From Moniliella sp. 'wahieum' (Eukaryota; Basidiomycota; Moniliellomycetes; Moniliellales; Moniliellaceae), in contig RSEE01000053.1 in the NCBI GenBank assembly GCA_003971905.1, positions 372,001-436,000 on the forward strand: a DNA stretch of 64,000 bases, written 5' to 3'. Below the pieces are notes generated by a model. It searched no databases and was not told the origin of the DNA. It saw only the letters and a list, made by a program, of their open reading frames with translations. Position numbers and translations under genes: made by a program. Below, in pieces: positions 7,021 to 58,875 of this stretch (positions are counted from its first letter, which is position 1; every line of letters starts with the position of its first letter).

Positions 7021-7396
7021 GTTTAACGTACGTGTTTAACCTTCGCCGCGGGCAACTTGGGACGACGATGCCCCCAGAGGGGCGTAGTGGCTACTATGTA
7101 AGGAAATAGGCGGCGGCGGAGCCTTGCACCTTTTCTGGGCGCAGCATCACGCATAAGCGCAGGGATCACATGTCACATGCATGTCACATCTGCTACTTGC
7201 CCATCTAACATTCAGGCTGCACGTACGTGCGCAATGATTATAGCCTTAGCACAGACTGTTTAATTGATAGGTCTTGAAGCTTGAAGCTTGAGCCTTGGCC
7301 TTACTAGATCCATTGCAAGCTACCGGCTAGCTACTCGCTGCTAGATACTGATTACCGCTTCCCGGGAACAGGTAACCCTTCACGCCAAGGCCTCAG
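7021..7396 (+). repeat. Left arm of a long imperfect inverted repeat
   Basis: This arm pairs with 8328-8750 read on the other strand. The best block is 30 bp without mismatch (within 7131-7160, around the word CTGGGCGCAGCATCACGC). Further matching blocks are GCCGCGGGCAACTT, CATTCAGG..G.ACGT.CGTGCGCAA, a 35-bp block with about four mismatches ending TTGCAAGCTACCGG, and GGTAACCCTTCACGC. Overall identity is roughly 70-75 percent with small indels. The spacer is about 0.93 kb and has no transposase-like frame. Confidence 0.8.
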
Positions 7397-17791: not shown

Positions 17792-18664
17792 CTTGGTGGG
17801 GCATTCCAGCTTGTTGAATCAAACTTAAGCCTCCATCTTCTCTCGCCAATTGAAACCACACATGAAAACCAGATTCTTTGCCCTTGCTTCTCGTTCCCCT
17901 CATCAATCACACCGGTTATTCTTCATGCCCCTTGTTGGGGTAGACCCAGCGCACAAAAGGCACGCTAAAAGAACTCCACTCGCCTGGGTCTCGCTGTAGT
18001 GATACCACCCAAAGTAAACCCCCACTGTCACGGGCGGGCACCGCCAGGGGGCCCGCCGGGGGGGAGGTTGGGGATACAAAATCCCTTGGAGGTCATCTCC
18101 AATGAAGGCCGACGCACGGTCGTTCCGCGTGCTTGGGCTGATTGGTGCGTCCCAGCGAGGTGAGGGACAAGGAGTGGCCTCTCAGCCTGTAGCAGAGGCG
18201 GCTGCAGGTGTAGGCTGCGTAGGACCAGCTTGGGCAGCAGTAGCGTGTGTGAAGCCTTCGGGCTCAGGGACGGGAAGTAGTAGACATATAGCAATAACGG
18301 GGGCTTGTTTGGCACGGGCGCAACAGATAAAGATCGAGGTAAAGCGGGGGCGTGGCGACAATATTGTTGTCGCAAGAATACCAACGACTCCCTTGGTGCG
18401 TCCCGACTTCAACTTGAGCACAAAGCGACTTATCTGGGCGCAGTGCAGTGGGTAGAGCAGGAAGGCCTTAGTTAGCTCGAATGACCATCTCTGATCCGAC
18501 GGCACCTAACACGAAGGGGGGCTGCTGTGCGCACCCTCCAACTCATCATTCTTTGTCTCCCTGCTCTTCTCATCAAACCTCATTGCCACTCTGGAAGACT
18601 TGCATCTCACCACCTAGATTCCGCCTGAAGGATGGGACGCTTTCTCATTCGAGCACGAACACAA
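17792..18664. other. Intergenic between tRNA-His and tRNA-Ser
   Basis: No gene seen. The GC-rich patch GGGGGCCCGCCGGGGGGG-like at 18,048-18,066 is low complexity. Confidence 0.4.
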
Positions 18665-18762
18665 GGCAATGTGCCCGAGCGGTTAAGGGGATTGATTAGA
18701 ACTCTCATATTCTAACCATCAATTAGGCTCTGCCTGCACAGGTTCGAATCCTGTCATTGTCG
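18665..18762 (+). tRNA. tRNA-Ser (AGA) with 16-nt intron, copy 1
   Basis: Acceptor GGCAATG/CATTGTC with discriminator G; D arm with GCCCGAGCGGTTAAGGGG; anticodon stem ATTGA/TCAAT with loop TT-AGA-A; a 16-nt intron (CTCTCATATTCTAACC); a long variable arm; T arm ACAGG-TTCGAAT-CCTGT. CTTTTT follows the 3' end as a Pol III terminator. The exons are identical to the tRNA at 21,521-21,618. Confidence 0.93.
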
Positions 18763-19589
18763 TCTTTTTATTCATCGGGTTTACCTGCTTTTTTTTATTA
18801 GCGTATATACATTCGTGCACGAAGGAGAGACTATGGTTGTTGTGCCAACCGAAAGGTAGTACATGAGGGAAAACCGCAACACCGGGGGAGCCCTGAGTAA
18901 GAAGAAGTTGCTTCTGCCGTATTGGGTTACGCCTGGGGTAGAGAGTAGACTGGGACGGGGCAGAGTGAGTTGCGGCAGCGGCAATAACTTTTTGGCTTTT
19001 GCAACACAGGGCCGACCCCAGTTGGGACTTGGACAGTGCAGAGTGAGCAGCGGCGAGGCGGCGAGCTTGTATCCATGCTTCTTGGATTTGCTCACTAAAT
19101 CTTCGTCTCCTTTCGAGACGAAGGCTCCGCGTCCGTGTTATTATCTTCAGAAATGTCTCTACCATCTCGGTCTCAGCATCTGCGCGTCGGGTGGTGGTCG
19201 TCTCTCCACCCGCGGCTCAAATGTGCCAACACGCTGGTGTTTTGCATCCGCAGGCGCATACTTTATTGATGGGACACATTCTTTCTTCAAAGGGCGATAC
19301 TGGTTTCCCTTTTCTGTGAATGCAGGAACACCCTGGCCTTCCGTGACGCGTGAACCGAAACTGAGGCCGGTCAACCCGTCGAGAATGGCTTCCCAATGCT
19401 CACCCCATGGGCGCGAGCGTACTTACATCAACATAGGGTACTCGGAACGGTTTCGAATCATCTGCAAGATCCAGATGAGCGATGAAGGGCGGCAATGAAG
19501 ACTTTCGGCCAAAACGTGAGGACAGGGGAAGACCAACGATGCTGCTTTCGCAACAGTTCCTCCGCCTCTTGACAGCCCCCGCAAAAAGT
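18763..19589. other. Intergenic between tRNA-Ser and tRNA-Thr
   Basis: No gene seen. The plus-strand frame 18,863-19,498 is open for about 200 codons, but its composition and lack of motifs do not support a real gene. Confidence 0.35.
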
Positions 19590-19661: not shown

Positions 19662-21520
19662 ATCGGGTTCTCTTTAGTGATTGTTAGAGTCACAAGCGTA
19701 CCATCAGTTGCAGTTGCAAGGTTCTTCGTTCCCCCTCGAAATACATCCCGTCGGCACCGTTTTGCTATATGGGATCAAGTCACAAGCCGGTCTCTGGCTT
19801 GGTGAAGTCGGCATGTCTGTTTTGCCTTCTTCATGAGGCTTCCTTTTCATTCACGGCCGGCTTTATCCTTTACCTGATGTGTCTTCGCTCTCTCCTTTTC
19901 GCCTCCGGTTTGGTAGTTTATAAATGTAGGCATCACTTCTTTCATTGGAGAACTGCGGGCTTCACTGACAACGTTCCACGACTGTATGATTGCCATCAGC
20001 GAAGATGATGAATAACACTTAAGAACTGCGCAACAGCCCTTACAGTCCTAAGTCCCTTTTCTCACCGGCTGCTGAGGCGATGGAAGAGAAGCGTTGAGCC
20101 TGTTGAGAGCCATGGGGGGCGCTTTGGATTCTATGTCTTCGTCGTGCCTTATATTATTCTTGGATCATACAGAAGACGGGCCGATGAATTAATGAGACTA
20201 GGCTAATATGCTTGAAAGCAGTATCTTCCACTCCACCCCCTCTCTTTTTTGGCTTCGAAATGAGTGAGACGTGTGTGTCATCATGCATCAACAGCCACAG
20301 TTCGATTCATCCCTGCACGATGAGAGATATACACATTCCAAAGACCCTCTCTCCCTTCAGGCAGATAGGCGCTGGACCACTTGTTGAACCATCGGGTGGC
20401 CCGTGCTTTGGCCAATGTCCCTTCAGTTCCTCCTCAAGCCTGGGAGTTCCATTGTTTTCTCTCCGTCTTTTGTTTTCCCTGTTCCGCAGCTTAGCCCCTG
20501 GTGGCGACTCGCTGCTTGTTGTTCCTCTGTAGGTGTCACGGGGCGACATCTGAGCCACCTTGCACAGCCGCCTCCACTTCCTTATCGTCGCTATCGCTTC
20601 TCGGCTTCTTTCCCTATCTCGTCTATCTCGACTCGTTTTCTCTCTCTTTCGCTATCTTGACTGGGATCGTCTTCCTATCAACTAAAACCCACAACTATCT
20701 TGGTTTCTCCGCTCGCGCTCGTCTAAAATCCAAAACACAACACATGGTTTCTCGACTCGGTTTCTCGACTCGTTTCTCGTCTCGGGTCCATTTTGCCCTT
20801 GACCCTCGTCTCGCCTCGCCTCGTCCCTCTCGCGCTTGGTCCTCTTTCCTTCCCTTTGACTCGTTTCCCCTTTTACTCTGTAGACCTCTTGGTCTTGCCT
20901 TGTTCCTTTTCTCTTCTATAAAACCTGCCTGTTCTTAGATCCAATGATGATGGCCCAAGCCGCCGACCATTCTTTCCCCTTTCCCCTTCACCCTTCTTCT
21001 AGGCTCTCCACTTCTAGAAGGAACACCTCGCTCAGCTCGCTCGCCCTCCCTCGCCCATCGGAGCACACCGCTTTTGCGCCAGCCCCTACACACGCAACCT
21101 CTGCTCGCAGACCGCTGCACCTTTCGCAACCTCTGCTTGCAGACCGCTGCTCAGGCTCTGCTCGACGCACCGCAAAGCACCACTCACGACCTTCCTTCGT
21201 TCACGCCAGTGAGCCTTGGACTTTGGATCTGAAACGCGTTCAGTCCTCCGTGAGTACCGTCTCCGATGGGCACAGGGAAGGTCTCCGACTGGGAAGCCAG
21301 CCACCCCATCACAGTAGGCGTTGCTGGTTGGCTTAGACCACCACCACCACCAGTGCGATTGTATCACCCTCGAGTACCATCAGGACTCCAGGTCTCATGG
21401 CCACTTGGACCAGCTCTACCCTTTTGCGCGAATTGCTCCACTCTGTGTTATAAAAGTTGGCGACAGGATATCTTTCCCCAAACAAATATTTAAAAAAAAA
21501 CATTTAAAAAACAGACAAAA
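19662..21520. other. Gene-poor stretch with dispersed repeat copy 2
   Basis: Pieces at about 20,460-20,530 and 21,305-21,385 match the diverged repeat at 1345-1580 (opposite strand). The pyrimidine-rich region 20,560-20,930 (TCTCGTCT/CTCGACTCG words) is low complexity. No supported protein gene. Confidence 0.45.
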
Positions 21521-21618
21521 CGACAATGACAGGATTCGAACCTGTGCAGGCAGAGCCTAATTGATGGTTAGAATGTTGGAGTTCTAATCAATCCCCTTAA
21601 CCGCTCGGGCACATTGCC
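21521..21618 (-). tRNA. tRNA-Ser (AGA) with 16-nt intron, copy 2
   Basis: Same exons as 18,665-18,762 in the opposite orientation; only the intron differs (CTCCAACATTCTAACC, three changes). A T-rich run follows the 3' end on the minus strand. Confidence 0.93.
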
Positions 21619-24600
21619 TTTGGAGCTACGAATTTCGGGTTGGAGCCACGGGAGGGGCGGCTGCAACTTGAACACTCGCCATTTAACTCTGATGCTTCTA
21701 TTGCTTCGTGGGAAAGTCAAATCAATCGTTTCTGCTGGCTCCATGGCCTCTCCACAGTAGCGTGGTGGCACCGTCTTATTTTTGTCCATCTCCAAACAGA
21801 CCACCGCCTGCCAGATGGACGCCCCGCAATGCGGCGTATGAGACACTCCGGCGGTTTCCCGATTCCTCTATAAACACTGTCGGCGGATCTGGACGGAACC
21901 ACACACAGAATAAAGGCGAGGCTCATGTGACTTAAGGCGAGCTTTAGGCTATAGCTTGGCAACGGTGCGTATATGCGCCGGCCCTGGTAAGACTACTAAT
22001 GTGCCAGGATGACAGAGTCGCCAAAGAAGAAAAAGAATTCGCATCTCAGGAGAAAAGCAGGGGCCCAAAACGCACCCAGGGCACGGGTCATCTCGGCTTA
22101 AGAAACTAAGGGGGTGGTGTGGGGGCGGTTGAAGGTAACATGTTCTGTTTACAAACAAAGGAGTACATGTGTTGTTCCTCCACCTGTCTCGATAGAGATC
22201 CGAGTCAATATAAACATAACCCACTGAAAGGCAAAAGCAAAAAAGGGGGAGTGCTGTCTCTCCCCTACGCCATCCCCGATGGCATCAAGCACAGGTGCCA
22301 AGTAACGCCCCCACACGAGCCGACCCCGTTTACCTTACCCGTTTCTCCTGTGCGATCCTCCAGTGCTTCTCCATTACGGATTGCAGCATTACTACGATCA
22401 TATCTGAGAGAGGGGTCGATCGTCGATCATCACCACGGCCTTGGGGGGTTTGTTTGGTAATTTTCTGATCGGGAGATCGGGAACCAAAATCCGGCCGAGC
22501 CTTGACTCAGGCTGATTGATAACGTGTTACACCGATCGAAGTCATCTAGTAATGATCTAGTAATAATCGAGTGAGTAGCGTCGATCGTACACTGATCAGG
22601 TCGATCAGGGTCAACCAATCGATCAAAGTGATCGAGGACCTGTCAAGGTGTCAACGTGTCAACGTTCAACGTCCAACGTTTTCAACCGTCAATCGCGTCA
22701 ATATCAACCGAGAAAGTGGGTAAATGCTCCGGGGATAGCAGTGAGACCTACGGTATTCAGAACATTTGCAAAACGTGGGGGGGGCACATATGAGGCACTT
22801 CTTCATCTATCCGACTAACACCCGGCTTTTGTGTTATCAGCTCACGCCTACCCAAAGAGCCAAGTGTTTTGGCAGCAGTTCAGGTCACTCTGCGGCACCT
22901 GCCGTTCATTTCCTTGACTCGATGCATAGATAAATAGGAGAGCGTATGCCGTACATGATACTCAAGAGATCTAGGCTACTTCCACAAAGTTCATAGTCAG
23001 GACGATGGCTTACTGGTTACGTTTACCGTTTGTCGAAAAAGCAGTGCCTGTATCGTCCCCCTTCTTACACTGTTTTATTCAATCTTCGCCGCTTGTGCAT
23101 GTTATGATGCCATTTCGGAAGTATGAGGGATCTATAACAAGGCCTAAAGACGTTTGCCACTGCAGTCTCAGCAGACCTCCTTTTGGCACCGTGGCCATGC
23201 ATTAATAATGACTACATCTCTGGGGAACTTGGATCTGCTAGGTTGGATACTATGCTGAGTATTGGCCAGTCACTAGTATCTAGTTATACCTCTAATAGTG
23301 GTGACTAGCTACTCAGTTAGTGACTGCAGTTATTAACTTCTTTTGAGCTGCCGCAGCGGGCTGCAACACATGTGTGGGTACATAAAACTTCTTTTCTACG
23401 GAGTATGATGCTGCTACAAGCTACATCCACCGTTTGGGATCCGTTCCGATAAATTATAGCGCTATACACATCCGAGATCTGATTGTGCGTGCGGAAGCCT
23501 CGCAAGGCCTCAGGCCTCACCGGCCTCACCACGTTCAACGAACTGAACAGGGAGAGTCCCTCTGCTCGCACACATGTAGGACTTTATTGCGATGAAACAT
23601 GTCTAGTCACTAGTCACTAGTCACTAGTCAACAATGTAATAATCAAGCTTCAAGCTTCAAGCTTCAAGCTTCATGACATTCATGACAAGTGGGGAAAATG
23701 TCGACCAAAACCGATATAGTGCATCACGCACCAACGTTCAACGTACATTCAACGACCAACATTGTCCTAGCTCTCTCCTGCTTCCTTTGTACCGGTGTGT
23801 TGATTGTTGTAACATGTAACCTTTTATATAATAGAGCCTTGCTCGTCAAGCTTCAAGCTTCAAGTCGGTCAGACCGGTCAGGCCTCAGGACCCTTTGGCA
23901 CCCCTGCCATTCACCAGATGTGGCGCGAGTAGTGGATACTTGTGTGAGCGCTCAGCTGAGCGTGCTGGTATACACGCGAGAGCACGCGTTACGTATACGT
24001 TACGTATACGTTACGCGTCCGTGCCCCCGTTAGTCTGGCATTATAGTGACCAGCATGCACTACTCATTGCAAGCAGTGCTAGTAGTAGTTACCAACTGAC
24101 TAGAGAGAACACTGTATAATAGACTTTTCAGAGAGAAAACTGTGTTGTGACTGGGACTAGTGTCAGGTACTCGTTACTAGTTGGGGTTGCTATGGACGCC
24201 TTGAAGCTTGATGGTCGATGATCGATGACATGCAATGACACATGGTGGATACCCCATTGGTCTCTGTTTTGTCTAGAGTGTAGTCATTACCCGAAAGTGC
24301 ACACTTCTGCCAAGGTTATTGATGACCGCAATGATGAGCCCTATGGGCCTTCTATACATACACGTGCATGGTACACTGCTCGGGGCCCATCAATCAGGGC
24401 CAACAGCCTGGCCCAGTATATTATAGCCTACAACATTTAGCCGTTGAGTGGTGCCCACTGTACATGTGTTGTGCCTCCCGCGCCACAGGCACATGCATTG
24501 TGCCTCCGAATTTTCTGGAACGGTTTATTTTGAACCAAAAGTATATATATTACTCTCTTTCACCCTCCCCGACATGGGGATGGTATTGATGGAGCTCACG

Positions 24601-25142
24601 GCATTGTCTGCAGATGTCCTTCACCGGAACACTATAGCCATCAAGAGTCGCAAAAACTCGGATCCATTGCAATAAGGCGCACTCTATACTTCTTGTACGA
24701 GGTATTCCATCCAATCTCGTATCTCAACATCTTCCACTACGGTGGAACAGGGTGATACTGTAATCCTGAGCGCCCAGGAAACTCCGCCCCGCATGTGCTA
24801 CTTGAACATTTCCTGTCCGGACCTCTGTAGAGCTGGAGGGTATCTTCACTGAGTGTGGAGTCATTAACATTCGGTATCCATTTGACTCCTTGGCACCTCA
24901 TACACGTTTGTCTCTCCTGCTTCTTGATAACTCACGTGCACGGTGCACCTTTCTCACTACCAACCACCACTATCATTCAACGTTCAACGTTCACATGTCA
25001 CCCGTTCATCATCTCTCTGTTCCCATGCAATCAACTGAGATTCCACCTGGTAGGGATACCCCGTCTTCGTTCCAGCAACTTGACTCTATCCCACCATATT
25101 CCCTCTCCACAAAGCCCAACATCAGGCACGTTCGGTACAAGC
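21619..25142. other. Repeat-rich gene-free block
   Basis: No supported protein gene. Period-7 arrays are dense from 22,500 on: 22,650-22,680 (AACGTTC-like), 23,603-23,630 (four CTAGTCA), 23,645-23,672 (four AAGCTTC), 23,848-23,861 (AAGCTTC) and 24,979-24,992 (AACGTTC). An 11-base unit (TTACGTATACG) repeats at about 23,990-24,015. GATC/ATCGAT-rich sequence lies at 22,400-22,640. Confidence 0.55.
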
Positions 25143-28637: not shown

Positions 28638-30857
28638 GGCGGCGAGGGAGGCAAGCAGAGGGGGCGGTGGTGGAGAAGAGAAAAGGCAGGGGCGAACGCA
28701 GCGGCGGGAAGGAAGAGGACACACTGGCGCGGTGCGCCGGAATAAATTTTTGCGTGCTTACCTCAGCGCCTCCACGCGCTTCGTTTCCGCGCTGCGGCGG
28801 GGGGCAGTGAGGGGGGGGAGTGGGCTGCCTCTGAATCTGATCGGCCTGACTTTGGCCTCAGGGCCAGCGCCTGCGGCCCCAGAAGATCCGCTGGTTCTTC
28901 GCAGGCCACATGTCGCCTGGGCCACGTGGCCCAGCGGCCACCCCTGCACGTGACTGCCTGCTCCCGTGACCCCTGACCACGTGACCCCATCATTCATCGT
29001 TCCAGCTCAACGACTTGAGAGCAAACATACCCACACGCTCCCTTTGGCCCCAGGATGCCGAAGCGTGCCTTGGCGCGTGTCCCATCTCAGATCTCATCCA
29101 CAGCACCACGTCTTCCACGCAAGCCGCGCACAAAAGAGCGTGGTGGGCTGGGTGGCCTAGCATCCAACTGGGGTTCGTGCCCACAGCAGGGCGTCCACCT
29201 GGCTCAACGCTCAACAGCCAGCTCGGCCAGCGTCAGGTTGCGGGGACGGTGTGGGCGTACATCTCCAAGCAAGCGGGAGACAGGATGCGTTCCCACAATG
29301 CCTCCGATGGGAGGCTGGGATCTCAGAGCAAGTTACGTTCCACGTACACACACCTTCCTCCTCGCTCGTCCCCGTCGACGCTCTGTCCAGGATCAAGCTC
29401 ACGGTCTAAGATCTAACGCGGTATCGCACAATGGGCAACGTCTTCTGCCCCACCCCCACTGTCCTGTTTCCCCGTAGTCCGGCCACGCTGATGCACTCAG
29501 TACTCAGTTCAGTATTCATGAGTACTCAACGTACTCACATGCACATGACTCTGTACTCAGTACTCAGTACGTTAAGTACTAAGTTCTAAGTACTCATGAC
29601 TAGACTAGTGACTCAGGGACTTTAGGCACATGACTGACCCCGCTGATTGCATCCATGCACCATATCAATGGCTGCGACGGGGGTGGGACCGGGTGGGTCG
29701 GGGTGGGGCCCCATTGGCATGCTTCTGTTGCCATGCCACGGCTCCCTGGGTCCCATCACATGTCACATGAGCGCGTGCACATCCACGCTGTAGTCACCTA
29801 AGGCGTCAGGCCTAACGCCTAACGCCTATGACGCCTAACGCCTAACGCCTAACGCAGCTTCCTGCTTCCTAGTTTCCTTTCTTGGGCCTGCTGGCCTTAT
29901 CGATTATCGAGTATCGAGTACCGAGTGCCGGTTATTAGTGCTCCTGCTACCCCATCAAGCTTATCAGAGAGCGTAGGCCTTAGGTGCATGCGGAAGGAGT
30001 GACTACTTGTAGTGAGATCGATGGGGATAAAAGTATACCCGCCTCCGCAACCCGGCTGCAACACTCCCTCAATCGCCAACGCACGAATGGATATGCATGT
30101 GGTGACTCGGATGAGCAACTGAGTACTGAGTCGCTGCCAAGAGATGCCTCTCTCGGATAGGTTCTTCTTTATCGGCTCACCATCGTAAACCAAAGGCGCT
30201 TTGTGTTGAACTTCAACGCTTTGCACTCACTGAACGCTGAACGTTAGAACGATGAGATCTGAGATCCTGGATGGGATCAAATCCCAGTTCCCCACTCCAA
30301 TTCACTCGCTCTCGAGGAGGCCCCTGTGGACCTGTGTGGGCAGTGCCTCTCCGTCCTCCTGAGAAGTGGCAGGGCGCGCATCAGGCGCGCGTGCTCATCT
30401 GTTGCAGCAGCTGGGCCTTAGGAAAACAGGATGCCTTCATGTTCCTACGGGTGAGGGGGTGCCTCTGAACAATTTAATGGACAAGCGACAGAGAGAACAA
30501 AGCACATCGGATAGGAAATGCAAGTCTAAGGATATGGGAGGGATCTGGATATGGAAGGAATCTGGAGTAGGGCCCATTTCATTTCACTTTCAGCGGGTAC
30601 AAATCGTCGAATTACGTCTATGGTTCTGTACCGAGGGTAGCCCGTACGACGGGACGTAAGCCAGGTAGATTCGTGACAGATAGTAGAATGTACAAAAAAA
30701 TACAAGGAGTGGCGGCAACCGGGGCCAGTATGTGAGATGGTGGGGAGGGGGATGATGAGGAATGAAAAGAGATGAGGAGGAGGAGGAAGGAGAGAGGCAG
30801 AGGCTCAAAAGGTGCCTCTCCCCCCGGGGGGACGGGGGGGGGGGGGCAAGCCTCACA
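28638..30857. other. Gene-free block with period-7 arrays
   Basis: The promoter side of EFB1 (about 28,640-28,760) is GC-rich. Beyond it, arrays occur at 29,553-29,570 (GTACTCA) and 29,811-29,854 (five CCTAACG units, one interrupted), with ACATGTCACATG at 29,758. A G/GGA-rich low-complexity patch lies at 30,765-30,850. No supported gene. Confidence 0.5.
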
Positions 30858-32056: not shown

Positions 32057-34766
32057 GGCGAGGGGAGGCAGAGGGAGGGCAGAGGATGGGAAGGACGAGG
32101 GAGCGGTGGCGGGGGACGGCGGCGGGCACGGCGGCGGCGCGTGTCTGATGGTGGTGGCGGGTCTAATAGCGGACGGGTGAGGCCGAGGGAGGGGCGCTGG
32201 GCAGCTGGCTGCGCTGGGCATCAGGAACGGAACGCAGGGCCCAGGCACAGCGGGCACCTGCCTGCTGGTACGCAAGCCAGGTACGCGCTACGCCCCAGCG
32301 GGTGCCCGGTGCGCCGTCCCCGGTCCACCGACACCGCTCAGCCTGAGCTCAGCCTGGGCGCTCCGCCAGGAACACAGCCGCGTGCCTGAAAATGCCGACA
32401 CTGCGCCCGTGCGGACCGCTTTCAGCCATCGCAGGCCACCGCACCCGCCAGCAGCCGCACCGCGCCCTGGCGCACCCGTCACCTGTCGCCTATGGCACAG
32501 TACTCAGAGCCTGTGATTTCTCACGCCCCCGCGCTGGACGGGGGCAGTGTGCCACGACCTCGGCCGAGGGGAGAGTGGGCAGCGCTGGGGGTTATTGATT
32601 CTTGGTTCCTGGTTCGGTGCCTTAAGTTTCGCAGTTGGCGTTTGGCGTTTGGCGTGTCTTAGCACGTCCTGAGTGCTTCAGCTCCTCCTCCATCCACAAT
32701 CGACTGCGTACGTGTCTCCACTCATGAGCAGCAGGCCGCGGGAGTCGCTCTTCACCCCCTGTGGCTCGGTCATGCCCAGGGCACAACGTGTGGAGGGGAA
32801 GGGGTTGGTCTGTGGGACTTGAAGCTTGAAGCTTGATGTGGATCCGTGTCTCCTGTGGAGGCGGCTTCCGAGGCGGAGCGTTAAGTCACTGATAGTGACT
32901 AGTGACTAGTGACTACTAGTCAGCGCGCTCTCGCTCTGTGCTGAGCCCCAGCCCTGAACATTTCAGCCCTCGGCCTCAATGTTCAATGGCAGCGGACTAT
33001 GCCGTCAACTCCCAGGCCGTGCGTGCACCTTGTCAAAGCTCTGCAAGCGGCCAACAGCTTCCACACACGTTCAAGAGGGCCAACAATTTCAACATGGCTT
33101 CGTGCACTACTGGCTAGCCAGCCACGCCGGCTTACCTGGCTCAGCGCTTTGGCCTCAAGCTCAGAACACTCAGTTGAGTACTCACAGTACTCCTCATACT
33201 CGTAATCATTAATCGATAATCATTAATCACATGTCACAGTGCTAATAGACGTACCATCAGTGGCGTACCACCATCGTAAAACGCGAAATCCATACTCGAC
33301 AACTGATCATCGATCAGACTAGCTACTTGGTAGACTAGCTACTTAATTGGTTAAGTGACTGTGCGCACTATAGCACCCACTCACGTGCACCCTCGCCTCC
33401 CCCATAGTGCAGATTGTGATGGCCTCCCACTTCACCGACCACTCTGGCTACACGCCTCTTCTCATTCTCGTGACGCGTGACGCGTGAATCAAGAATCTGT
33501 ACCAGTTAATCAGTCCTGAGCGCGTCATCCATGGCATGCATGTCACCGGTCACCGGTCACCGGCAAAGATGCTGATGTGCAAAAGTGGTGCAAAAGACCG
33601 GTCGGTGCCTGGGTGTGCCTGGGTTTTCCCTGTCTTCAGCTTCTTCGGCACACTTCGGCAGGCCTCGGCACTAGTTTCAGCGCCGGGCTTTGGCGTAGCA
33701 TCCAATGCGTAAATGTATGGCGAGGCCCTGAGGCTCAGCCTGAGGCCGCCGCAGCCCGTGACAGAAGGTGCCGGGGGGCCCAAAAGATGATCTAAGAGGA
33801 TTTACATATTTACTTCTTAGCTCCCTCGATCCCGGCTCATACTATAGGTGGTACTGCTCCATGCCGGGTACCCGGTACCCGCTGCCCGGCGTGTCTCTGC
33901 CAGTCTCTGGCCCTTTTGGTTTCAGACCTCTCAGAATACTGAAGCTCTGAAGCTCTGAGATCTGAAGCTTGAAGCAGACCGAACCTGCAAACCCTTTTGA
34001 TCGAGATCTCAGATCTGTGAGATCCCAGATCTTCTCCAGCCACAAGTGCAGCCACTCGCAACTCGCAACTGTTGGTTATTGGCGAAACCTCCGAAGAAAT
34101 TCGCTCGCACATGAATGTTTCAGCATTCCCCCCCGCAATGTTCTTCCTTATGCGTTACGCGTTACGGGGTTTGCAACCGTCCGCACTTCCAAAACCAAAC
34201 TTTATCCATCCCACGGGCACAGGCTGGCACAGGCTGGCCGTAGGCCCTGCCAGCCAAGCCTAAGCCACGTACGGTACGTACGTCCCTTGCGTGCGCCCTG
34301 CGAACACAGGCTTTCATTGAATATTGAGCGAGCCTGGTAGACGTTAGATGTACCGAGGCGTAGCCGCGGCGTAGCGTTTCTTGGTTCCTGTTCCATGGTT
34401 TGCCAAGGCCACGAATCTCAATCCAGCAGCGATATACGATGGCAGCTATTGCAGACCATTACAGTTCCTGGTCTCGCGGTGCTGAACGATACCCTGCCGA
34501 TGGGTGCCGAACAGCGCTGTATACTTCAGTAGGAGTTACTGTTAGTTACTCTTCCTGTTGTTACTATAGTCACGTGTTACATGTTACGCCGGATTGGCCG
34601 GTGGCTGACTAGACTGCTCTGGATTCTTTGTATTCTCTTGCGGATCGACGCGCTATCAGATCTCTGATCTCCAATGTCAGATGTCAGACAGTGTGTAGAA
34701 CCTGCCGCTGCATCTATCGACTATCGCACTCGACTGAGACTCTAACTCGGCACGCACAGTACTCAC
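32057..34766. other. Gene-free block left of the retrotransposon
   Basis: Period-7 arrays occur at 32,822-32,835 (AAGCTTG), 32,894-32,914 (three AGTGACT) and 33,543-33,563 (three TCACCGG). AGATCT/GAAGCTCT words lie at 33,945-34,035, and GATC/ATCGAT-type sequence at 33,210-33,320. No supported gene. Confidence 0.5.
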
Positions 34767-34977
34767 TGTTGACCACCAGTGGTCTAGAGCCCATCGGCCT
34801 TCAGTGACACGTGGCCCGATCCACACAGTGCACCGGGGCAGTGAGTTCCGACCCTTCCACGGGTCTCCACTGGCCTCCAGGCCAGGAGCCTATCAAGGCC
34901 CATAGCTCTAGCTCTCCTTAGCTCTTGAATGCCATCTCCATCGACCATCGCCAGCATCGCTAGCTAGGCCTGTGACA
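34767..34977 (+). repeat. 5' LTR of the copia element
   Basis: 211 bp, TG...CA ends, identical to the 3' LTR except for one C/T difference at the word CACGGGTCTCC. It should carry the element's promoter and polyadenylation signal; no clear TATA box is visible. Confidence 0.97.
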
Positions 34978-34993
34978 GAGCTACAATCTGAAG
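34978..34993 (+). promoter_or_regulatory. Putative primer-binding site
   Basis: The bases right after the 5' LTR are GAGCTACAATCTGAAG, not the TGG... start that pairs with a mature tRNA 3' end. Their reverse complement, CTTCAGATTGTAGCTC, reads like an anticodon stem-loop, which suggests priming by an internal tRNA fragment as known for Drosophila copia. The match to a specific tRNA is not established. Confidence 0.4.
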
Positions 34994-35123
34994 CACCCCA
35001 CTGGCGCAAAGGATCAATACTCAGCACCACCATCGGCGCCCACCGTCACCACCACCACCAACGCCACCATCGGCACCACACACCAACCAATTCAAAAAAA
35101 AAACAAAGGAAAAATCAGCCACC

Positions 35124-36355
35124 ATGCCCCCCGAACTGGAAGAAAACACCCCTCCTCCCGAAGTCTCTGTCATCGAAGAGGCGCAGGACATCGACGAACC
35201 GACCACCACCCTGTCTCCGACCCGACCTGGCAACAGGCCCTCACCGCCGTCAGAGACAACCTCCTCGCAAGCACCCGCGCGTTCAAGCCCACCAGCGCTG
35301 ACAATCTCCGCTCCACATGCCGCTCGTTCGCTACGGATGCACACACGGCGGCGTATGGACCGAAGAGCAAGAAAACACCGGGCGGAAAGGAAAATTGGAT
35401 CTACACGCTCACCCTCGCGTTGGAGAAATATGTATTGGCCGTTGAATTCACGAAGCCGCAAAACACCCGTGAGGCCCTTGCATCCGCGAGTGAGGACATG
35501 GCCGAGCTTCGCCACGCTGAGAAACGCGCGTCAAAAGAGATCGAGCGTACCAACGCGACGCGCAAGGACGCCTTCCGCGACCCCACCGAATATGTGCTCT
35601 GGGAGCCCTCCATCCTCAACATCCTGGACCGCATCCACCCCGCCGCGAAGGACATCGTTCGCTCCGGTCCATCGTCACCACACTACGACTCGTCCCTCGA
35701 TCTACGCCTCCAGAACCTTCTGTGGTCCCACCTCCCGAACGACGTTCAATCTGCCATTATTGCACAGGACAACGTTGACACGTCAGCTGACTTGCTCCGT
35801 GCCCTGCGAAACAAATACGGTACGGTCGACTGCAAGACGTATCATGAATTGTCCAGTCGCTTTCACCACTGCTACCAAAACCGGCGCAGCGGGAGCGCGT
35901 TCCTATCTGAAATGGGGACGCTCCGCAACCGGATCAGCGCAACCACACCGATGTCGGACGAGCAATTCCGCCGTATCCTCGTCGGGGCCCTCCGCGACCC
36001 TGGTGACCGTCGCCGCCTAGAGCACATGACTCTGGCGGAGACAATGCAAGACGTGGAGAGAATCCCAGCGGACCCAGAGTACAGAATTCCGTACCGGGGC
36101 CGTCACCCCCGGACCGCCAACTCGGGCGCTGGCAAACACGACAGCGCGGGATCCCAGCAGCATAGCGGGGGTCCTCCTGCCGGTGCATCTCCCCGTAGCG
36201 GGGGTGCTCTTGCGAGAAAGCCGTCCGGCCACACCGGGGTTCCTTCGAACAACAAATGGCACCGCAACAGCTCCGCGCGAGCGCACATTGCCACCGAAGA
36301 CGACGTCTCCGAAGGGGAGACCCTGTCTGTGGACCTTGCCCTATCTGACAAATAG
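35124..36355 (+). CDS. Copia gag
   Basis: ATG at 35,124 in the context ACCATG. The first frame (MPPELEENTPPPEVS...) gives way near 35,215-35,225 to the frame carrying TWQQALTAVRDNLLASTRAF, then EKYVLAVEFTKPQN and the helical capsid-like region RLQNLLWSHLPNDVQSAI, ALRNKYGTVDCKTYHELSS and EMGTLRNRISATTPMSDEQF. This matches the UBN2/retrotran_gag type of copia elements. No CCHC zinc knuckle is visible in the Gly/Ser/His-rich C-terminal part. The frame ends at TAG 36,353-36,355, and the protease follows in the same frame directly after it. Confidence 0.85.
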
Positions 36356-39300
36356 GAACTCGCGGGCAACCAGGACATCCAGTCTCGTCACGACTCGGGC
36401 GCGGATCCTAGCATCTGGAAGGATCTCAGGGTATTCAAAACCCTCAAGCCCAGCAACCGCTCAATCGAAATCGCTGATGGAAAACATATTAAAGCCAGTG
36501 GACGCGGAACATGTAGCATCGGTATCAAGTGTACCGACGGCAAATGTATCCATGTAGACCTACCCGGCAGTCTATACGTCCCCGGCATAGCAAGCAATCT
36601 CACGAGCGTAGCGCAAATAAGTGACGCAGGCCACGCATCCTGGTTCGCCCCCCACCGAAAAGGTATCTGGTTAAATGACAAGCATGGCAAATATCACCAA
36701 ATCGCGGATTCCTCATACAAGCTGAACATCGTCCCGAAACCGACCCACAAACGAACACGCGGCCAAAGCTGCCGTCGCCACCCAACACACCGCAGCCAAC
36801 ACCATCGAGCACGTCATGTACGTTCACCAACAGTACAACCACGCCGCGCTAGACCTACTCCCGACACTAACCGCCAACGCGCGAGCGAGCCTCCGCGTCA
36901 GCCCTGCCCAAATCCGACGCATCCGCCCCTTCTGGCATTGTCCCACCTGCACAAAAGCTCTGGCCAAAGCGCCCAGCCCCTTCGCGCCACGGCCGCCGCA
37001 TTTCGGAACGTCCTTTCGAAGTACTGCACGCCGACGTAGTCGACCTCCCTCGCATCACTGGCATGGGACATGGATACGCCCTGGTCGCGGTTGATGACTG
37101 GAGCCGTTACACCTTCGCTGTTCCCCTAAAGACGAAAGGACAAGCCACGGCGGAGCTGAAAAAACTCATCACCCGCGAGCAACGCATCGGAAAGGACCGT
37201 CTGCTTCGCATCTTGAAGACAGACAATGCCCCCGAGCTCACCAGCGCACCGTCCGTTCCTTGAATCCGAAGGTATCACGACGGAAACCACCATACCAGGC
37301 CAAAGTCAATCAAATGGGGTGGCCGAGCGAGCCATCCAGGCAATCACCACACGCGCGCGCCAACTCATCATCGCCTCGGGCCTCCCGACATCAAACTGGT
37401 GGCAGGATGCCTTGCTGGCAGGGTGCTGGACGCACAACCTCATGCCACCGACATCTCCACGCCAGGGCACACAATCTCGGGCTGAGCTGTACAAGGGGTC
37501 ACCCCCACCGCTGCCAATGCACGCCTTCGGATCCTTGGCGTACCTTCACCTGGCCCAGGACCAACGTGACCATAAGCTCAGTCCGCGGGCTGTCGAAGCC
37601 ATGCTCGTCGGGTACGACGCAGGTCGAGGTACAAAGGGTTGGCGCTGGGCTGTGTACGACCCGTCCATGGGCACGTTCCGATCCCAATGGGCAAAACCAT
37701 ACAAGTGGACCAGCGCCAATACCACGAGGTTTTCCCCGACCGCTTTCCGCCTGACGTATCTCGCTTCCCGCTCAACCCCTGCCTGACAGAACTATGACTG
37801 ACACTGAAACCAAAAGGGAGAAGAAAAAATGAACAAAATTGAAGTTGCAAATCCCAACACACCACCGAGAATCAACACTGATACTGACGCGACCATCGCA
37901 AGACAAAACGACACCCATCCAACCACCCCCACCACCAGACGGTACCCGCCCGGACCCACCAGCGCCGTTTTGACCTTGACTGGGCACAGCTCCCCGTAGC
38001 GGACGACCCTCATGATGGTGACTTCCACGCACACGCTGCCGCGCTGCCTCCGGTTCCCCTCCCTGACGGTAGTCGTAGTCCTGCGATCGGCCTACGCTTC
38101 CCACTGCCCGACACTGCCCTGCCGCGTACAGCGACGGTCTCCATCCGCCTGAATACAAGGCGATGATCGCCCTTAGCGAGCCAGGGCCGCACGAGCGCAT
38201 CCAGCTCACCAAGGACGGAGTACCTGTTGCACCCAAGACAATGAAGGGCCTCCAATCACACCCCTCATTCGAACCAGTGCTGGAGGCGATGCGCACGGAA
38301 ATCGACACCCTAGCCCGCTACGGCACATTCGAAGTCGTCACGCCCCCTCCAGACGCGCAGCTGCTGATTGGTCTATGGCGCATCAACACCAAAACGGACG
38401 CGGACGGAAATTTCCTACGCTACCGAGCCCGTCTCGTTGGGGGGCCACCAGCAGGATGCTGACACATGGGGACAAACATTCGCCCCTGCCGTGCGCACTC
38501 CTGCCATCCTCAGCCTTATCGCCCTTGCTGGAAAGTTCGGCCTCCACCTCTTCACTGCTGATGTGCACTCTGCCTATTTGAACGCTCCCCTCACGGAAAA
38601 AGTGTACCTCCGCCCACCCCCATTCTTTCCCGAGGAAAAAGGCAAGGTCTGCGTCTCCGGAAAAGCCTATATGGCCTCCACCAATCCGGCGCAAACTGGG
38701 CGGTATTCATCCGTGACTTGCTCCGCGGAGACATGGGTTTTGTACAATCTCTGGCTGAGCCGTGTTGTTCATCCGACCCCGTAAAGGCGACACGGTCCTC
38801 CTTGCCGTGCACACCGACGATCTTCTCATCGCTGCACGTCTCACGCACGCTACGATTCCTTCCTCACTGAGATCAACACCCATATCGAGGTGCGGGGAAA
38901 CGGCCCCCTACACTACCATCTTGGCTGCCAGTACGACACCATAAACGGGAAACTGTACCTTAGCCAGCCAAAATTCATTGAGGAATCCATTGCCAAACAT
39001 GAGGTTCCGCCACCCCTGGTTATGGGCCTCCCCCACCCCAGCAAGATGATCCCCGCGCGCACCGACCCCGAACCGCCCGCACTGCCCGCCGAGAGACGCG
39101 ACTATCAAGCCCAAAAGTAGGATCTGGGCTGTGGGCTGCCCGCATGTGCCGCCCTGATGCGCTGTTCGGCATCTCAGCTCTAAGCCGAGCAACTGCCGAT
39201 CCCTCCAAGGCCCACCGCGCTGCGGCAACAAACTTCCTCCGCTACCTCTACGGTACCAAGGGCTACGGTCTCCGACTAACACCCGAGCCTGACGCACCCG

Positions 39301-39818: not shown

Positions 39819-40023
39819 CCACCAGTGGTCTAGAGCCCATCGGCCTTCAGTGACACGTGGCCCGATCCACACAGTGCACCGGGGCAGTGAGTTCCGACCC
39901 TTCCACGGGTTTCCACTGGCCTCCAGGCCAGGAGCCTATCAAGGCCCATAGCTCTAGCTCTCCTTAGCTCTTGAATGCCATCTCCATCGACCATCGCCAG
40001 CATCGCTAGCTAGGCCTGTGACA
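39813..40023 (+). repeat. 3' LTR of the copia element
   Basis: 211 bp, 210 identical to the 5' LTR. It is preceded by a short G run (39,808-39,812), the only candidate for a polypurine tract. Confidence 0.97.
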
Positions 40024-41841
40024 CTCACTGTACTCACTCTCAATGTTAGGTCCAACTGTGTGTTGCATTGCGTAGTGGGTTCCTGCGTTCCTGGTCTGTA
40101 TACTTTAGGCAAAAGAGGATGAAGCATGAAGCATGATGCATGATGCATGATGGGTTACTAGCTTTACTAGTTGCTGGGTATGGAGATTCCCTCTGACTAG
40201 CTGTTTCCTCTTGGACTGAGAGGGGACGTTCCCGGTGGGTGCTACCCTGGGCTGCGACACTGCCACAACACCTCCCTCAGCCACCGGTTTCACCTGCCCC
40301 ACCACCTACACGCCCTAGTACAACTATTAAACGTCCATCAACCGTTCTAACAGTTCCAACCCTTCTAACCCTTCCAACCGTTCTAACCTTCCAACCGTTC
40401 CAACTGTTGACCTCTGGTCATTTATGGCCAAGGTCACTTCCGAGTGACATCATGTGTGATGCGCGTGTGATGTTTTCTGACGTGGCGTTTCCGACTCCAT
40501 GATGACTTGGATTCGCCACCGCCTTAGCAATTTGGCCTCATATCGACCACCATTCCCATTTGCTGCTCTTTGAGCTCTTCCTGGGCGTTAATAACCTTCC
40601 AACCGTTCCAACAGCCCACTGGAACGGATTCCTCTGGCTCCTCTTTTTAATCCTAGAGACAACAGCAACGCAACAGAGACACTTCGAGCACACATGTCTG
40701 TCGCATAAGTCACCTACTGTCATCCGTTTGGTTTGCACCGCCTCTCCCCGTCCCAGATGGGCGAGAGATAGTCCAGCGCTCATCGATTATCTCCCTCACG
40801 GAGCGAGAGGGGACAACAAGTCCGTTGAGATGTTACTAGTAGAGGAGACATCAACAGGCTCTACTAGCGATTCGTGCTCTCACCCGCGGGCAAATGAAAA
40901 CAACGCAATTATAGTTATATCCCTTGGAGATCGGAAAGGTGTCCCTCCACGTGCCGCAGGTCTCGTCCGACATGGGTGGTCTTTCGGCGGTATATGGTGC
41001 TGCGTACAAGGTACCTCGGGCTTTTGCGCAGTTATGACGATGTGAAGCCGTGCGGACACGGGTACCAGTCGGGTCGAGATTAAACGAGGGAGAGCAAGGT
41101 CCTGTCAGAGGCGGGGGGGAAGGCAAAAGTTCGTTCATGGAAGGAAACAGAAGGCATCGGGCAGAGAACAGAGAACAGAGAACAAAAGCAAAAGGAAGGG
41201 ATGAGCGAGAGACGTGGGGATGGCGGGAGGGGGAGGGGGAGTGAAGGCCAAACCCTTTCAGGACTGTAAGACTAATAATAGGCGACCAGGAGATGCGATA
41301 ATTGGAGCTGATGGGGAGGAAGAGAAGCTGACTTGACGCTTGCACCGAGAGTGGGAGTGGGAGCGGGAGTTGGGACACCTGTATATTGGGTGCTGGAAGA
41401 TGAGCAGCGAATGAGAGATCCACGGTGCCTGGTTTGGTCCATTGGCGAGAAAGGAGAAAAGACCGCCAAAAGGACCGGGAAGGGGCGCGGCACTGGTCGA
41501 GCCAGAGGGGGACGAAATCGGGGCGGAGAGTGTGCGCGCAAAAAATAAGGCAGCTCGCACGTGGCCTATATACGTCGGACTAGTCGGTCCCACCGTGATG
41601 GCACGCATCTTTTGACCAAGTAAATTCTCACGCCTGAAAAAGGAACGACTTCCTTCCAACCCCCCCCACCTCGCCCCCTTTTGGGGGGTAGCTTTGAGGG
41701 GCGGAAAGGAAGGAGGAACACGGGCGCTTCTCCGTGTGCGCACAAATGTCTCCATTTGACCAGGAGAAAAACCGTTGCACGATGCGGCATGCATTGTCCT
41801 CCTCTGTTCGTTGGGCATATACGGACTGAAAGCCAAAAGAA

Positions 41842-42025: not shown

Positions 42026-42059
42026 ACAACCGAAGCCAAAGCCAAAAAAGCCAGAAAAA

Positions 42060-53990: not shown

Positions 53991-56665
53991 GTGATAAGAT
54001 AATCATCTCTCCGTTCAGTGTCACGGGGGGGCGAGAGCCGGCGTGGGCGTGGGCATAACCAAAAGTCCATGTCATCCAGGATCGCCGTAGGGCACTCTAT
54101 TACAGGCTCAACGTGCTCAACGCTTCTCCAGAGCCCAAACCGTCTTCAATGCTGCAAAACAGAAAGACATATGCTTGCTCTGTGTCATGGTATGGCGTAT
54201 ACTATAAGACCTAAGGCCCAAAGCCAGAAGCTGCCCCCGCCAGGAACTAGAGACTAAAGTAACGATAGTTGCAGGTTGGGTTAGCTACCCCAGGATGAGA
54301 TCGATGGCTGTGGCGTCCTCGCGCTCTCTTTGAGCCAAGAGGGGGTGGGGTAGCGGGAAATCGCATTCGCTCCAGGCGAGTCTTCGGAGACTTAAAGCTT
54401 AACATGTGACAGGGGACCAGAGACTGAGTCGTGAGCAGCACCCACGTGCCACATCTCTGTCCCAGTATTAGGGAGGAGAGGAGGACCACATGTTTTCAGT
54501 CAGTACTCAGTCTGAGTACTCAGTCCGCATGGGAAGCGTTCCGTAACGCGCGCTCTTTCGTGGCCTCCGTCAAGCCCATTTCCTCTCAGTTTTTGTTACT
54601 CTTACTTGCCGAGCTACACCTCTCTGCTTTCGCCCCAGCTCGGCCTGCTCTCTCCCTTCCAAGTGTTCTCGGTGTTGTGCTTGCATACTGAGACCAGGGC
54701 TGCCAGCGGACTTGTTTCGAGGGATTCGGCCAGGGTCACAACCGTGGCAGTCGCCAGCCTCGGACCTCAGCGCGTTCGTTCAGATCTCAGAGGTTGAGAG
54801 GGGTAATGCGGTAAAATGTCTAATGCTTGACTTGCGATGCTGAGTGCTCGCTGGCGCTCCTAGACTGAGGTCTCAGGTCCTCAGGCAGACTGAACATGTC
54901 CCAGACCACATACAGCCGGCCTCTGTCTCCGCGGAGGTGTGGTATGCACTGAAATCCGTGCGGTATGCCGCCTCTTCGTTGGTAGTGTGTGCCCTTGAGG
55001 TGTGGAAAAATGTGCCTCCCTTTTGTCTATGATCCGCATGCTTCATAGGACTGCACCACCTTCCCCGTGAGTATCCGCGTGACCCTAAGCGGCAAGCCCC
55101 GTCTGCTGTGATGGTCTCTGCAGTCCCGGTCACCGGTTACCGGGTACCGACAACCGATAATCGGATCCATAATCGGATTGATAACCGATTTAATGACAGG
55201 TCGTCACCGGCTCACCGACAATTGATCGACCTAGGCGCTCCCCTTGCCACGTGCAGCAGCAAGACGGGTGTCACGTGGTGCAGGCTCAGCGCTCAGTGTA
55301 AGCTGAGGACGTTGGAAGTTCCATGTAGGAACAGCACAAACGAGTACATGTGGCTCCAAGCTCCAAGCTTCAGGCTTTGCTTCATCAACCATTCATGTCC
55401 ACATCCATCATCCATCGTTGCCACAAGGGTTGTCTCCAGCCCGTGAAAGGGACTCGTCTGAGTACTTACTCAGTACTGACGTACATACTGACGTCCTCGC
55501 ACCCACTCAAGCACAACTCGCCTATGCAGATGATCAACGATTAACGATTAACATTCTTTCGACGTACTTCAAGCTTCAAGCTTCAAGCTTAACGTACTGG
55601 CGAATGTCCCCCCATGCTTCTCGCGAGTCGCTGCTAGCCAATCGCGTGGAAGGCGCTCGAGGAAGCCTGAGGTGGATCAGATCATCGATCAGGTGGCTCC
55701 TTTGCCTGTATCTGGGGCTTTGAGTGTCGGTGCCCGTTCCGACGCGGAAGACGAAAACAGTCTCTGCGTGCGTTCATCGTTGAACGTTAAACGTCAAGTA
55801 CGTTAAGCGGACACGTCGAACGCTGATCGTCAAACGTCTCCATCAGGCATCGCATCCATCATCAGATCTCAGATTGCGTTACCATCTTCAGCTACCCGCG
55901 CTACGTTCAGCTGAGCGTTGTTCAGCGGTTCGGCAGTGTACCATGCACCAACGTACTCATCGTACTCGCCCTACCGATCCTTTACGCCCACGCGCCCTCG
56001 GTTAAAGACGTTAAACGTTAAACGCTAAGGCGCTAAGGTCGAATAAGGCCCTGGGGGCGGGGGGGGGCTGACTCAGGCTCACAGGCCCCAGGGGCATCAA
56101 GCGATCACAGCCTTCAAGTGAAGCCTCATTTGAAGCTCCAAGGTCGTCAGGGTCTTCCCTATTACCTTTCTTGGCGTATATACGCACTGCAGTGGCTCGT
56201 CGGCATCGATAATCATATCATCGTACTGCGTCGCCCCCACGACATGCACGTCACGCGTCATGCATGCCACATTGATGCCAACACCAGAGGACAGCTTGGT
56301 GTACACACAAAACATATGTACACCAGTAGCGAATGGCCGCGGAGGGACAAGTATCATCCTATCGCGAGACCCTGACGATGTCCTAGTAGCTCTGCGGAAC
56401 CACGCGGTATAGTAGCCATGCAATATGCCCCGTCGCAGCATCCCATTTGCATCCTCGTCTTCGTCTTTCTCTTGATGCTCATCCTCACCCTCATCCATCC
56501 CACCATCGACACAGCCGCTTTCGCGCCCCAACTGTCCCCCTCCTATCGCCTTTTCGCAGCAGCCCCTGGCCGTTTGCCCTCACTACATCTTCACTCTCCA
56601 TCACTCTCTTCCACCGCGTCATCTTTCCGTTTCTCCCACCCCCAACCCCTACTTTGTTTGCCAAC
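53991..56665. other. Gene-free block with period-7 arrays
   Basis: Arrays at 55,571-55,590 (AAGCTTC) and 56,009-56,022 (CGTTAAA), plus CGATTAA units near 55,538-55,552 and AGTACTCAGT words at 54,500-54,525 and 55,455-55,480. ACCGGT/GTAACCGG words lie at 55,128-55,145. No supported gene. Confidence 0.5.
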
Positions 56666-58118: not shown

Positions 58119-58875
58119 TACCCCCCCTCCCTCTCCCCTCCTCTCCGCTTAGCGCACGACCTCTGCGTCAGCGCGCAGGCCCGCCCTCCCTCGTTGTCCC
58201 CGAGCGCATGATCGGGAATGTAGTACCATATAATGTGGATATATGATCGTTTTGTTGCCCTCTTCTCTCGATCTCCGCTGCGTGGTTTGGTGCTGGGGTG
58301 AAACCTTGTGCGGGGGTTTGACCCTTGTGATGTTTCCATCCCTTTTGCCTGCTCCACCTGACGACTGCCGTGTCTCTCCGTGCTGCAGCTGCACACCCTC
58401 GGCCCCCTGCCCCCATATACACATCGAGTACCGAAGGCAGAGTGCATGAAAGGGGCATAGAATGGCTCGCTTATCATTTTTGCTGACGTTGACCATGTGG
58501 CCCTGCACCTGCTCTGGGACCTGGTCCACGTGGTTGTGGATGAACGTGTGCACCCCTACCTCGTTGCATGAAAGGCTGGATGGATGGATGGAGGGGGGAT
58601 GGGCACGGCACGAGAAGGCAAGGCAGACAGGGCAGGGCACGGAGTGGCGTGTGGGTGCTGAAGCCAAGGCGGCGCTTCAACAGCTCCAACAGGGGTAGAT
58701 GGGGTGGAAGGACAGCGGGGTAAACGGGAAGTGCTCCACGTCAAGTTTTGTTCACGCGTCACGCGTCACGCGCTCGCTCGCTTGCGTTCCGTTCCGCCCT
58801 GCCAAACTTTTTGCCTCTTCGCTGGGCTTGGTCTGGAAATGGAGATTGGACGGGACGCCGAGGCAGCCGAGGAAG
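58119..58875. other. Intergenic upstream of TAN1
   Basis: No supported gene. CACGCGTCACGCGTCACGCG at 58,753-58,772 is a short direct repeat with the palindrome ACGCGT. Confidence 0.4.

Follow-up and report, generated by a model that had tools for sequence, protein, structure and literature searches.

Period-7 Palindromic Repeats in the Intergenic DNA of Moniliella: A TNA Triplet Plus a 4-Base Palindrome Made from Local Sequence

Introduction

What produces short tandem arrays that differ in sequence and yet share a period of seven bases? The question is raised by a 64,000-nucleotide stretch of the basidiomycete Moniliella sp. 'wahieum' (GenBank assembly GCA_003971905.1, contig RSEE01000053.1, C53:372001-436000; hereafter the window), in which a first-pass annotation had noticed micro-arrays whose units mostly appeared to consist of a 6-base palindrome and one spacer base. 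The recurring unit is instead the triplet TNA, chiefly TCA/TGA but TAA/TTA as well, together with a 4-base palindrome of any kind, made from local sequence. The palindrome and the length of seven stand; the fixed part is TNA and the spacer is not free.

Sequences and Definitions

The assembly that holds the window comprises 69.49 Mb in 223 contigs. An external sample of 200 kb was drawn from it as 20 loci of 10 kb (L009-L028) at hand-picked places, all on contigs C1-C10, and window and sample together form the 264-kb set. Array counts were compared with second-order Markov shuffles, long arrays in the comparison of periods were those of at least 2p+3 bases, and coding-like and non-coding-like DNA were split by codon composition, a crude proxy. 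P4 denotes a 4-base palindrome, N4 any four bases, and TNA the triplet T-N-A. A diverged second copy of the surroundings of the window lies on contig C29 and is taken for the other haplotype; aligned with the window, its stretches L029-L032 cover 22,630 bases and differ by 4.7% substitutions and 327 gaps. For another allele pair, L013/L033, the alignment spans 7,892 bases, with 3.1% substitutions and 73 gaps. The assembly seems to hold both haplotypes.

The Recurring Unit

All ten arrays quoted in the first-pass annotation are present where it placed them or within a few bases, that of CCTAACG at 29,811 being interrupted (19 + 25 bp). Exact period-7 arrays of at least 14 bp number 66 in the window against 5.8 (20 runs) or 3.8 (10 runs) per shuffle, and 117 in the 200-kb sample against a null of 12.4 or 15.7. 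Among long arrays, the sample holds 46, 43, and 0 of periods 6, 7, and 8 (null 0.6, 0.6, and 0; 5 runs), and the window 19, 30, and 6, so the predicted excess of period 7 holds over period 8 (43 vs 0) but not over period 6 outside the window (43 vs 46). The predicted enrichment of 6-bp palindromes is borne out, as they are present in 31 of the 43 sample arrays of at least 17 bp, compared with 122 of the 1,172 possible 7-base necklaces; 29 of the 43 are exactly TNA + P4. In the window, 30 of the 66 arrays are of this kind. The other 36, ACGAGCA, AAGAGGA, TTGGCGT, and CCTAACG among them, confirm that non-palindromic period-7 arrays occur, and look like ordinary or different repeats. Long purine-rich arrays of (AAGAGGA)n and (AAAAGC)n, at 49126-49224 and 42058-42171, are likewise ordinary-looking tandem repeats.

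The specificity of the unit is most apparent when its variants are counted. In the 264-kb set the count of TCA-P4-TCA is 202 where 5.9 are expected, and that of TAA-P4-TAA is 36 where 0.7 are expected, whereas pairs in inverted orientation are only mildly raised (TCA-P4-TGA 7 vs 2.9, TGA-P4-TCA 12 vs 2.9) and TCA with a palindromic spacer of two bases (31 vs 24.9) or six (4 vs 3.2) shows no excess. Genome-wide, TCAAGCTTCA occurs 3,830 + 4,020 times, while the reversed pattern is present only 23 + 14 times. The 200-kb sample holds 152 TNA-P4-TNA, which extrapolates to some 53,000 in the 69.5-Mb assembly. Cyanobacterial STRR (short tandemly repeated repetitive) sequences also have a period of seven and an intergenic location, with a fixed unit sequence. 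Here, in place of the few fixed units of an STRR or other heptanucleotide repeat, 15 of the 16 possible 4-base palindromes are in use. The proposal of one length-7 process behind different palindromes, rather than one sequence family, is upheld. A separate observation concerns window 23987-24015, where TTA lies between 8-base palindromes (CGTATACG) and the C29 allele has the 6-base palindrome CGTACG; longer palindromes are rare elsewhere.

Copying of the Flank

The two haplotypes reveal how a unit is gained. At 33430 an empty CCCACTTCACCG stands opposite a filled CCCACTTCAAGCTTCACCG, at 56249 an empty GCACGTCATGC opposite GCACGTCACGCGTCATGC, and at 23878, spotted by eye, an empty CCGGTCAGGACC opposite CCGGTCAGGCCTCAGGACC. 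In the haplotype pairs the inserted palindrome is the dinucleotide adjoining TNA together with its inverse: XY-TNA-ZW becomes either XY-TNA-[Y'X'XY]-TNA-ZW or XY-TNA-[ZWW'Z']-TNA-ZW, with a gain of seven bases per insertion. Ten of the 327 gaps between the window and C29 are seven bases long, and seven of these ten are TNA-palindrome events, comprising an empty allele at 23907, 33430, and 56249, a change of chain length at 7273, 33542, and 55567, and a case at 29897 for which a tandem duplication is an alternative reading. Given that these haplotype gaps are this very event, the scar process was active after the window haplotypes parted. In the L013/L033 pair no gap of three or more bases passed the automatic test for a TNA event, and one 14-base gap admits a reading as two successive events, but this requires the assumption of one mutation.

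Haplotype differences of other kinds were also seen. At L013 4677, compared with L033, a 7-base insertion CAACC-GG-CAACC has the same duplication-plus-inverse form around a TTG/CAA core that is not TNA. Indels at window 54506, 55464, and 33173 are centered on longer inverted repeats, for example AGTACTCAG-T-CTGAGTACT, and are not of the TNA class. Confined to one haplotype, an insertion of about 50 bp in L029, opposite window 23087, has perfect arms GTCACGGGC/GCCCGTGAC with CATGTT on both sides. A 446-base haplotype indel at 22961 was rejected as a clean insertion; it carries old repeats, and its junction shares only TC.

The haplotype pairs predict that single units should repeat half of their palindrome in one flanking dinucleotide. 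They do so in 110 of 135 TCA singles and 31 of 34 TAA singles. The corresponding baselines are 60 of 143 in TCA-N4-TCA without a palindrome and 113 of 372 where P4 lies between other triplets; counted by chains, the predicted flank accompanies 127 of 152 single units. One-sided copying, divided between the two sides, falls mainly on TCA/TGA (56 + 64) and TAA/TTA (14 + 13), the next triplets being CCA (6 + 6) and ATG (10 + 1), with at most 10 in each of the remaining 28 triplet classes. Among 9,839 TNA, a copied arm of one, two, three, or four bases is found at 11, 147, 0, and 4 sites and one of five to eight bases at none. Arm-2 sites at other triplets number 107 in 254,119, a TNA specificity of about 35-fold per core. 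Such fixed-length inverse copies, taken from either side equally often, are the mark of hairpin-closed ends opened off-center. Across 186 reconstructed sites (haplotype loci included) the middle base of TNA is C or G in 152, and there is no clear consensus beyond TNA except for another TNA seven bases to either side. This signal comes largely from neighboring chain units, a palindrome lying between in 60 of 96 such neighbors and not in 36.

Chains and Distribution

The 190 chains hold one unit in 152 cases, two in 30, three in seven, and four in one; the micro-arrays of the first pass do exist, but most cases are single units rather than long arrays. Since there are two TNA in every product, either can be hit again and chains can grow. 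If each event copies a neighboring dinucleotide at any TNA, a second event should give the same palindrome in three cases out of four. Neighboring units are in fact the same or different in a ratio of 36:11, near the 3:1 predicted by repeated single events. The fourth case determines both outer flanks, and 9 of the 11 mixed chains (among 38 multi-unit chains) carry both as predicted. In four hand-picked, scar-rich, gene-poor blocks of the window, scars are present at 65 of 770 TNA (17/196, 25/263, 13/168, and 10/143), a density at which a second hit is expected in roughly one in six scars there, near the 38 multi-unit chains observed among 190. Uniform chains may in addition have been lengthened by slippage.

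Scars per TNA amount to 205/8,208 in non-coding-like and 4/1,591 in coding-like DNA, about ten times rarer in the latter, in agreement with the first-pass statement that the arrays lie mainly in gene-poor DNA. A young copia-like retroelement at window 34767-40023, with 211-bp terminal repeats 99.5% alike, is one of at least 20 full-length matches with identities of 98-100%, and is apparently missing from the C29 haplotype, judged by spacing. No scars were found in its 175 TNA, nor in the 1,126 TNA of seven copies taken together, which were compared in order to polarize events. One scar-rich block also contains an old inverted repeat (7046-7329 and 8453-8734; arms of about 280 bp, 73% identity), perhaps a decayed mobile element.

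Origin of the Scars

We take the units to be scars left by breaks that had a 7-base stagger over NNTNANN and hairpin-capped ends, such as a hairpin-forming transposon of the hAT kind would leave, a mobile element being the putative agent, and put the probability of this reading at roughly 0.5. A staggered cut would duplicate the seven bases NNTNANN, as would be done by a transposon with 7-base target duplications on inserting and leaving. Both flanking ends would close as hairpins, and each hairpin would be opened at the TNA border, two bases short of the tip, to give the self-complementary 4-base overhangs Y'X'XY and ZWW'Z'. One overhang would be filled in and retained and the other trimmed to TNA, and joining of the ends would yield the two main products. 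XY can sit on the right-hand end, and ZW on the left, only if the break duplicates all seven bases. The route would be the P-nucleotide one known from hAT-type excision, with an outcome that is more uniform than usual. Minor products would reflect less complete trimming of the second end after the same break, namely a +9 class (18; controls 2, 2, 1) and a +8 class (21; controls 0, 5, 2); both overhangs are retained in two cases (controls 0), and these counts and that of a further class with three bases from each side are not mutually exclusive. In the +9 form the 7-base NNTNANN is duplicated and two inverted bases are added, as in GATCAGG-TC-GATCAGG. The 23 seven-plus-two repeats have a TNA center in part only: among the 22 that are one-sided, 10 have T at position 3 and 11 have A at position 5.

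Several other constructions were tried and rejected. A parse with the palindrome as target duplication and TCA as footprint founders on the dimers, most of which have TCA at either end, and on single TNA-P4-TNA being the commonest form. A footprint of two transposon-end bases is contradicted by the match of these bases to the local flank in the same 110 of 135 TCA and 31 of 34 TAA singles, and a hairpin with an inverted TNA loop by the rarity of TCA-P4-TGA. Generic hairpin arms around TCA fail as well, non-palindromic inverted arms numbering 25 against 30.8 expected.

Hairpin-type scars as such are known. For Candida albicans, yeast, and plants, the passages of PMC5873905 on hAT excision describe palindromic P-nucleotide insertions and implicate the Artemis-related Pso2 in yeast. 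Excision footprints of hAT elements (Ac/Ds) are alike in joining a short duplication to palindromic P-nucleotides from the flank adjoining the break, on either side; here too the palindrome copies break-adjoining bases, and both sides are similarly frequent (TCA 56 vs 64, TAA 14 vs 13). They are unlike in their variable arms and deletions, where arm 2 dominates here, and in that hAT duplications are usually of eight bases, where seven would apply here. Target duplications of seven bases appear among Basidiomycota in the relevant passages of PMC12730594, with hAT7 of rust fungi and Kyakuja of Laccaria. The likeness to hAT7 and Kyakuja (KDZ) is one of phylum and of duplication length, a length deduced here and seen as duplicated NNTNANN in the +9 scars; neither transposase domain was detected (controls silent) and no inserted element was found. 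The passages on MULE elements in PMC5225508 give 8- or 9-base duplications and leave hairpins unmentioned. As excerpted from PMC4679880, bacterial heptanucleotide repeats have fixed units; the TAACTGA repeats of Beggiatoaceae share the period of seven and the intergenic location, but their unit is fixed, where here it may hold any P4, set by the local flank. Period-7 repeats per se are known from bacteria. Among the matches listed, literature searches returned no TNA-palindrome scars and no period-7 palindromic arrays in fungi. The TNA-palindrome form appears to be new, and there is an open chance that its agent is something not described.

A number of observations weigh against the hairpin-scar reading. 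Structure searches of the fetched sequence yielded no transposon with NNTNANN target duplications. Searches for terminal inverted repeats with 2-, 3-, 4-, 7-, or 8-base duplications gave apparent noise only, 25 listed CA..TG-ended pairs with NNTNANN duplications bore no sign of a family, and the one candidate at L009 4635, with a 7-base GCTAAAG duplication, was rejected as gene-like sequence whose termini match over only about ten bases. Domain searches of the genome gave no matches to hAT (PF05699), KDZ (PF18758), or Plavaka, the controls being silent in each, none to DDE_Tnp_4, with a control that rang in 1 of 14 and introns that could still hide it, and none to the MULE domain, with a control that rang. 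The heterogeneity of hAT footprints in C. albicans (28 kinds among 128 in the same passages of PMC5873905) is at odds with the dominance here of the +7 product with its 2-base arm at TNA. Of the 152 single units, 25 have neither predicted flank; two of the 11 mixed chains depart from the prediction, and 197 of 431 TNA-N4-TNA fit none of five joins. Plain 7-base duplications lacking a palindrome are not enriched (10 exclusive cases vs 24-47 at control cores), and the scheme accounts at best in part for the class that takes three bases from each side (7; controls 0, 1, 2). Palindromic spacers of eight bases are slightly in excess (TCA/TGA 3 vs 0.5, TAA/TTA 2 vs 0.1) and only partly explained, and non-palindromic TCA-N4-TCA is also above chance (148 vs 94.8). 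Neither of the two 7-base gaps among the 73 of the L013/L033 pair is a TNA event, and we infer insertion rather than loss from structure.

The same breaks might be made with no element at all, by a host-encoded or domesticated TNA-specific enzyme that cuts the chromosome directly, its hairpin-capped ends being repaired into the same scar. The failure of five domain searches and of structure searches to deliver a transposon, the very uniform outcome, the lack of a clear target consensus beyond TNA, and the extrapolated 53,000 sites all speak for such an enzyme. It would nonetheless have to unite a filled-in 7-base stagger with the closing of hairpins, a combination that to our knowledge is known only from transposases and RAG-like recombinases, and the silent controls in three of the five domain searches weaken the argument from absence; it is a minority possibility to be kept in view. 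That an unrecognized, element-independent enzyme which targets TNA and makes hairpin-capped breaks, with a 7-base stagger and a fixed 2-base opening, wrote tens of thousands of self-propagating scars is similarly doubtful. If it did, each event would double its own target, and non-coding DNA would drift toward TNA-palindrome chains. Template switching in replication, in which the nascent strand snaps back at a TNA loop, copies two bases, and returns, is improbable. XY-TNA-Y'X' is indeed a small hairpin with a 3-base loop, and some other haplotype indels are centered on inverted repeats (54506, 33173), but variable arms would be expected where arms 3, 5, and 6 are each absent and arm 4 occurs four times among 9,839 TNA, non-palindromic inverted arms around TCA are not in excess, and the return point is exact in all counted sites.

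More improbable still are scars of a PIF/Harbinger-like element of the NuwaII type with a 3-base TNA target duplication. According to the passages of PMC4482050 that treat it, NuwaII targets C|TNA|G, in fungi too, and TNA is the core here; a 3-base duplication, however, puts no XY on the right-hand end and predicts no flank-derived palindrome, C before and G after TNA are not preferred at the 186 reconstructed sites, and DDE_Tnp_4 is without matches under the limits given above. Ordinary heptanucleotide slippage, perhaps aided by the 7-base polymerase contact that the cited part of PMC4679880 proposes for bacteria, is the least probable of these and has very little chance of being the source. 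It could draw on that proposal, on the 36 of 66 window arrays that lack TNA + P4, and on chain lengths that differ between alleles. Yet 105 of 152 single units have a one-sided flank, the empty alleles at 23907, 33430, and 56249 offer no pre-existing unit to slip, so that slippage could not create the first, uniform arrays would be expected where 11 of 38 multi-unit chains are mixed, 9 of those 11 with the predicted flanks, and the 35-fold TNA specificity is left over. Of the causes suggested at first pass, slippage and hairpin-primed synthesis both fit poorly with the 2-base arm, the one-sided copying, and the repeat-free empty alleles, and a nuclease footprint, in the sense of cutting or hairpin opening, fits best.

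If the hairpin-scar reading is true, the short intergenic repeats of a genome can serve as a chronicle of break repairs of fixed chemistry, tens of thousands in number, and so as a natural and countable record of hairpin-end repair in a fungus. An undescribed transposase or nuclease might be traced by the scars it leaves. The scars would also exemplify mutation that adds to its own targets, and would caution that an origin in slippage is not a given for short tandem repeats.

Sites in the Window and Neighboring Features

Table 1. Sites of the TNA-palindrome class in the window, with the state of the C29 allele where compared.
Feature	Position	Strand	Remark
+9 scar GATCAGG-TC-GATCAGG	22594..22609	+	allelic gap 10 bases; untagged by automatic test
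TCA-ACGT unit, 2 copies, within degenerate run	22659..22672	+	
GGCC/TCA chain	23505..23519	+	C29 allele +15 bases
CTAG/TCA chain, 4 copies	23603..23630	+	C29 allele: 2
AGCT/TCA chain, 4 units	23643..23673	+	
AGCT/TCA chain, 2 units	23846..23864	+	C29 allele: 4
Single scar TCAGG-CC-TCAGG	23878..23889	+	C29 allele = empty site TCAGG (by eye)
Empty site CCATTC	23907..23912	+	C29 allele has TCA-TTAA-TCA scar; one TCA base also differs
TCGA/TGA unit	24215..24228	+	
Mixed chain TCA-ACGT-TCA-ACGT-TCA-CATG-TCA	24977..25000	+	one of 2 with non-fitting flanks
CATG/TCA unit	7166..7179	+	
AGCT/TGA chain	7273..7291	-	C29 allele +1 unit
GTAC/TCA chain	29553..29570	+	
TTA-TCGA-TTA scar	29897..29910	+	not in C29 allele; alternatively 7-base tandem duplication
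CTAG/TGA chain	32893..32915	-	
Mixed chain TCA-TTAA-TCA-CATG-TCA	33220..33236	+	both outer flanks as predicted
Empty site CTTCACC	33430..33436	+	C29 allele has scar CTTCA-AG-CTTCA
CGCG/TGA chain	33469..33487	-	
CCGG/TCA chain	33542..33563	+	C29 allele -1 unit
Mixed chain TGA-GATC-TGA-AGCT-TGA	33956..33972	-	both outer flanks as predicted
TGCA/TGA chain	40131..40152	-	
AGCT/TCA chain	55567..55590	+	C29 allele -1 unit
Single scar CGTCA-CG-CGTCA	56249..56260	+	C29 allele = empty site CGTCA
CGCG/TCA chain	58752..58772	+	

The window also has four tRNA-family matches, three of which span 86-98 bases against a 71-position model; these, like the oxysterol-binding protein described below, point to a basidiomycete. 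Two tRNA-like genes of about 98 bp, likely with introns, form an inverted pair at 18663-18766 and 21517-21620 and are 96% identical. For an oxysterol-binding protein encoded in the window, the named matches near the top are mostly from mushroom-forming fungi, at about 54-59% identity.

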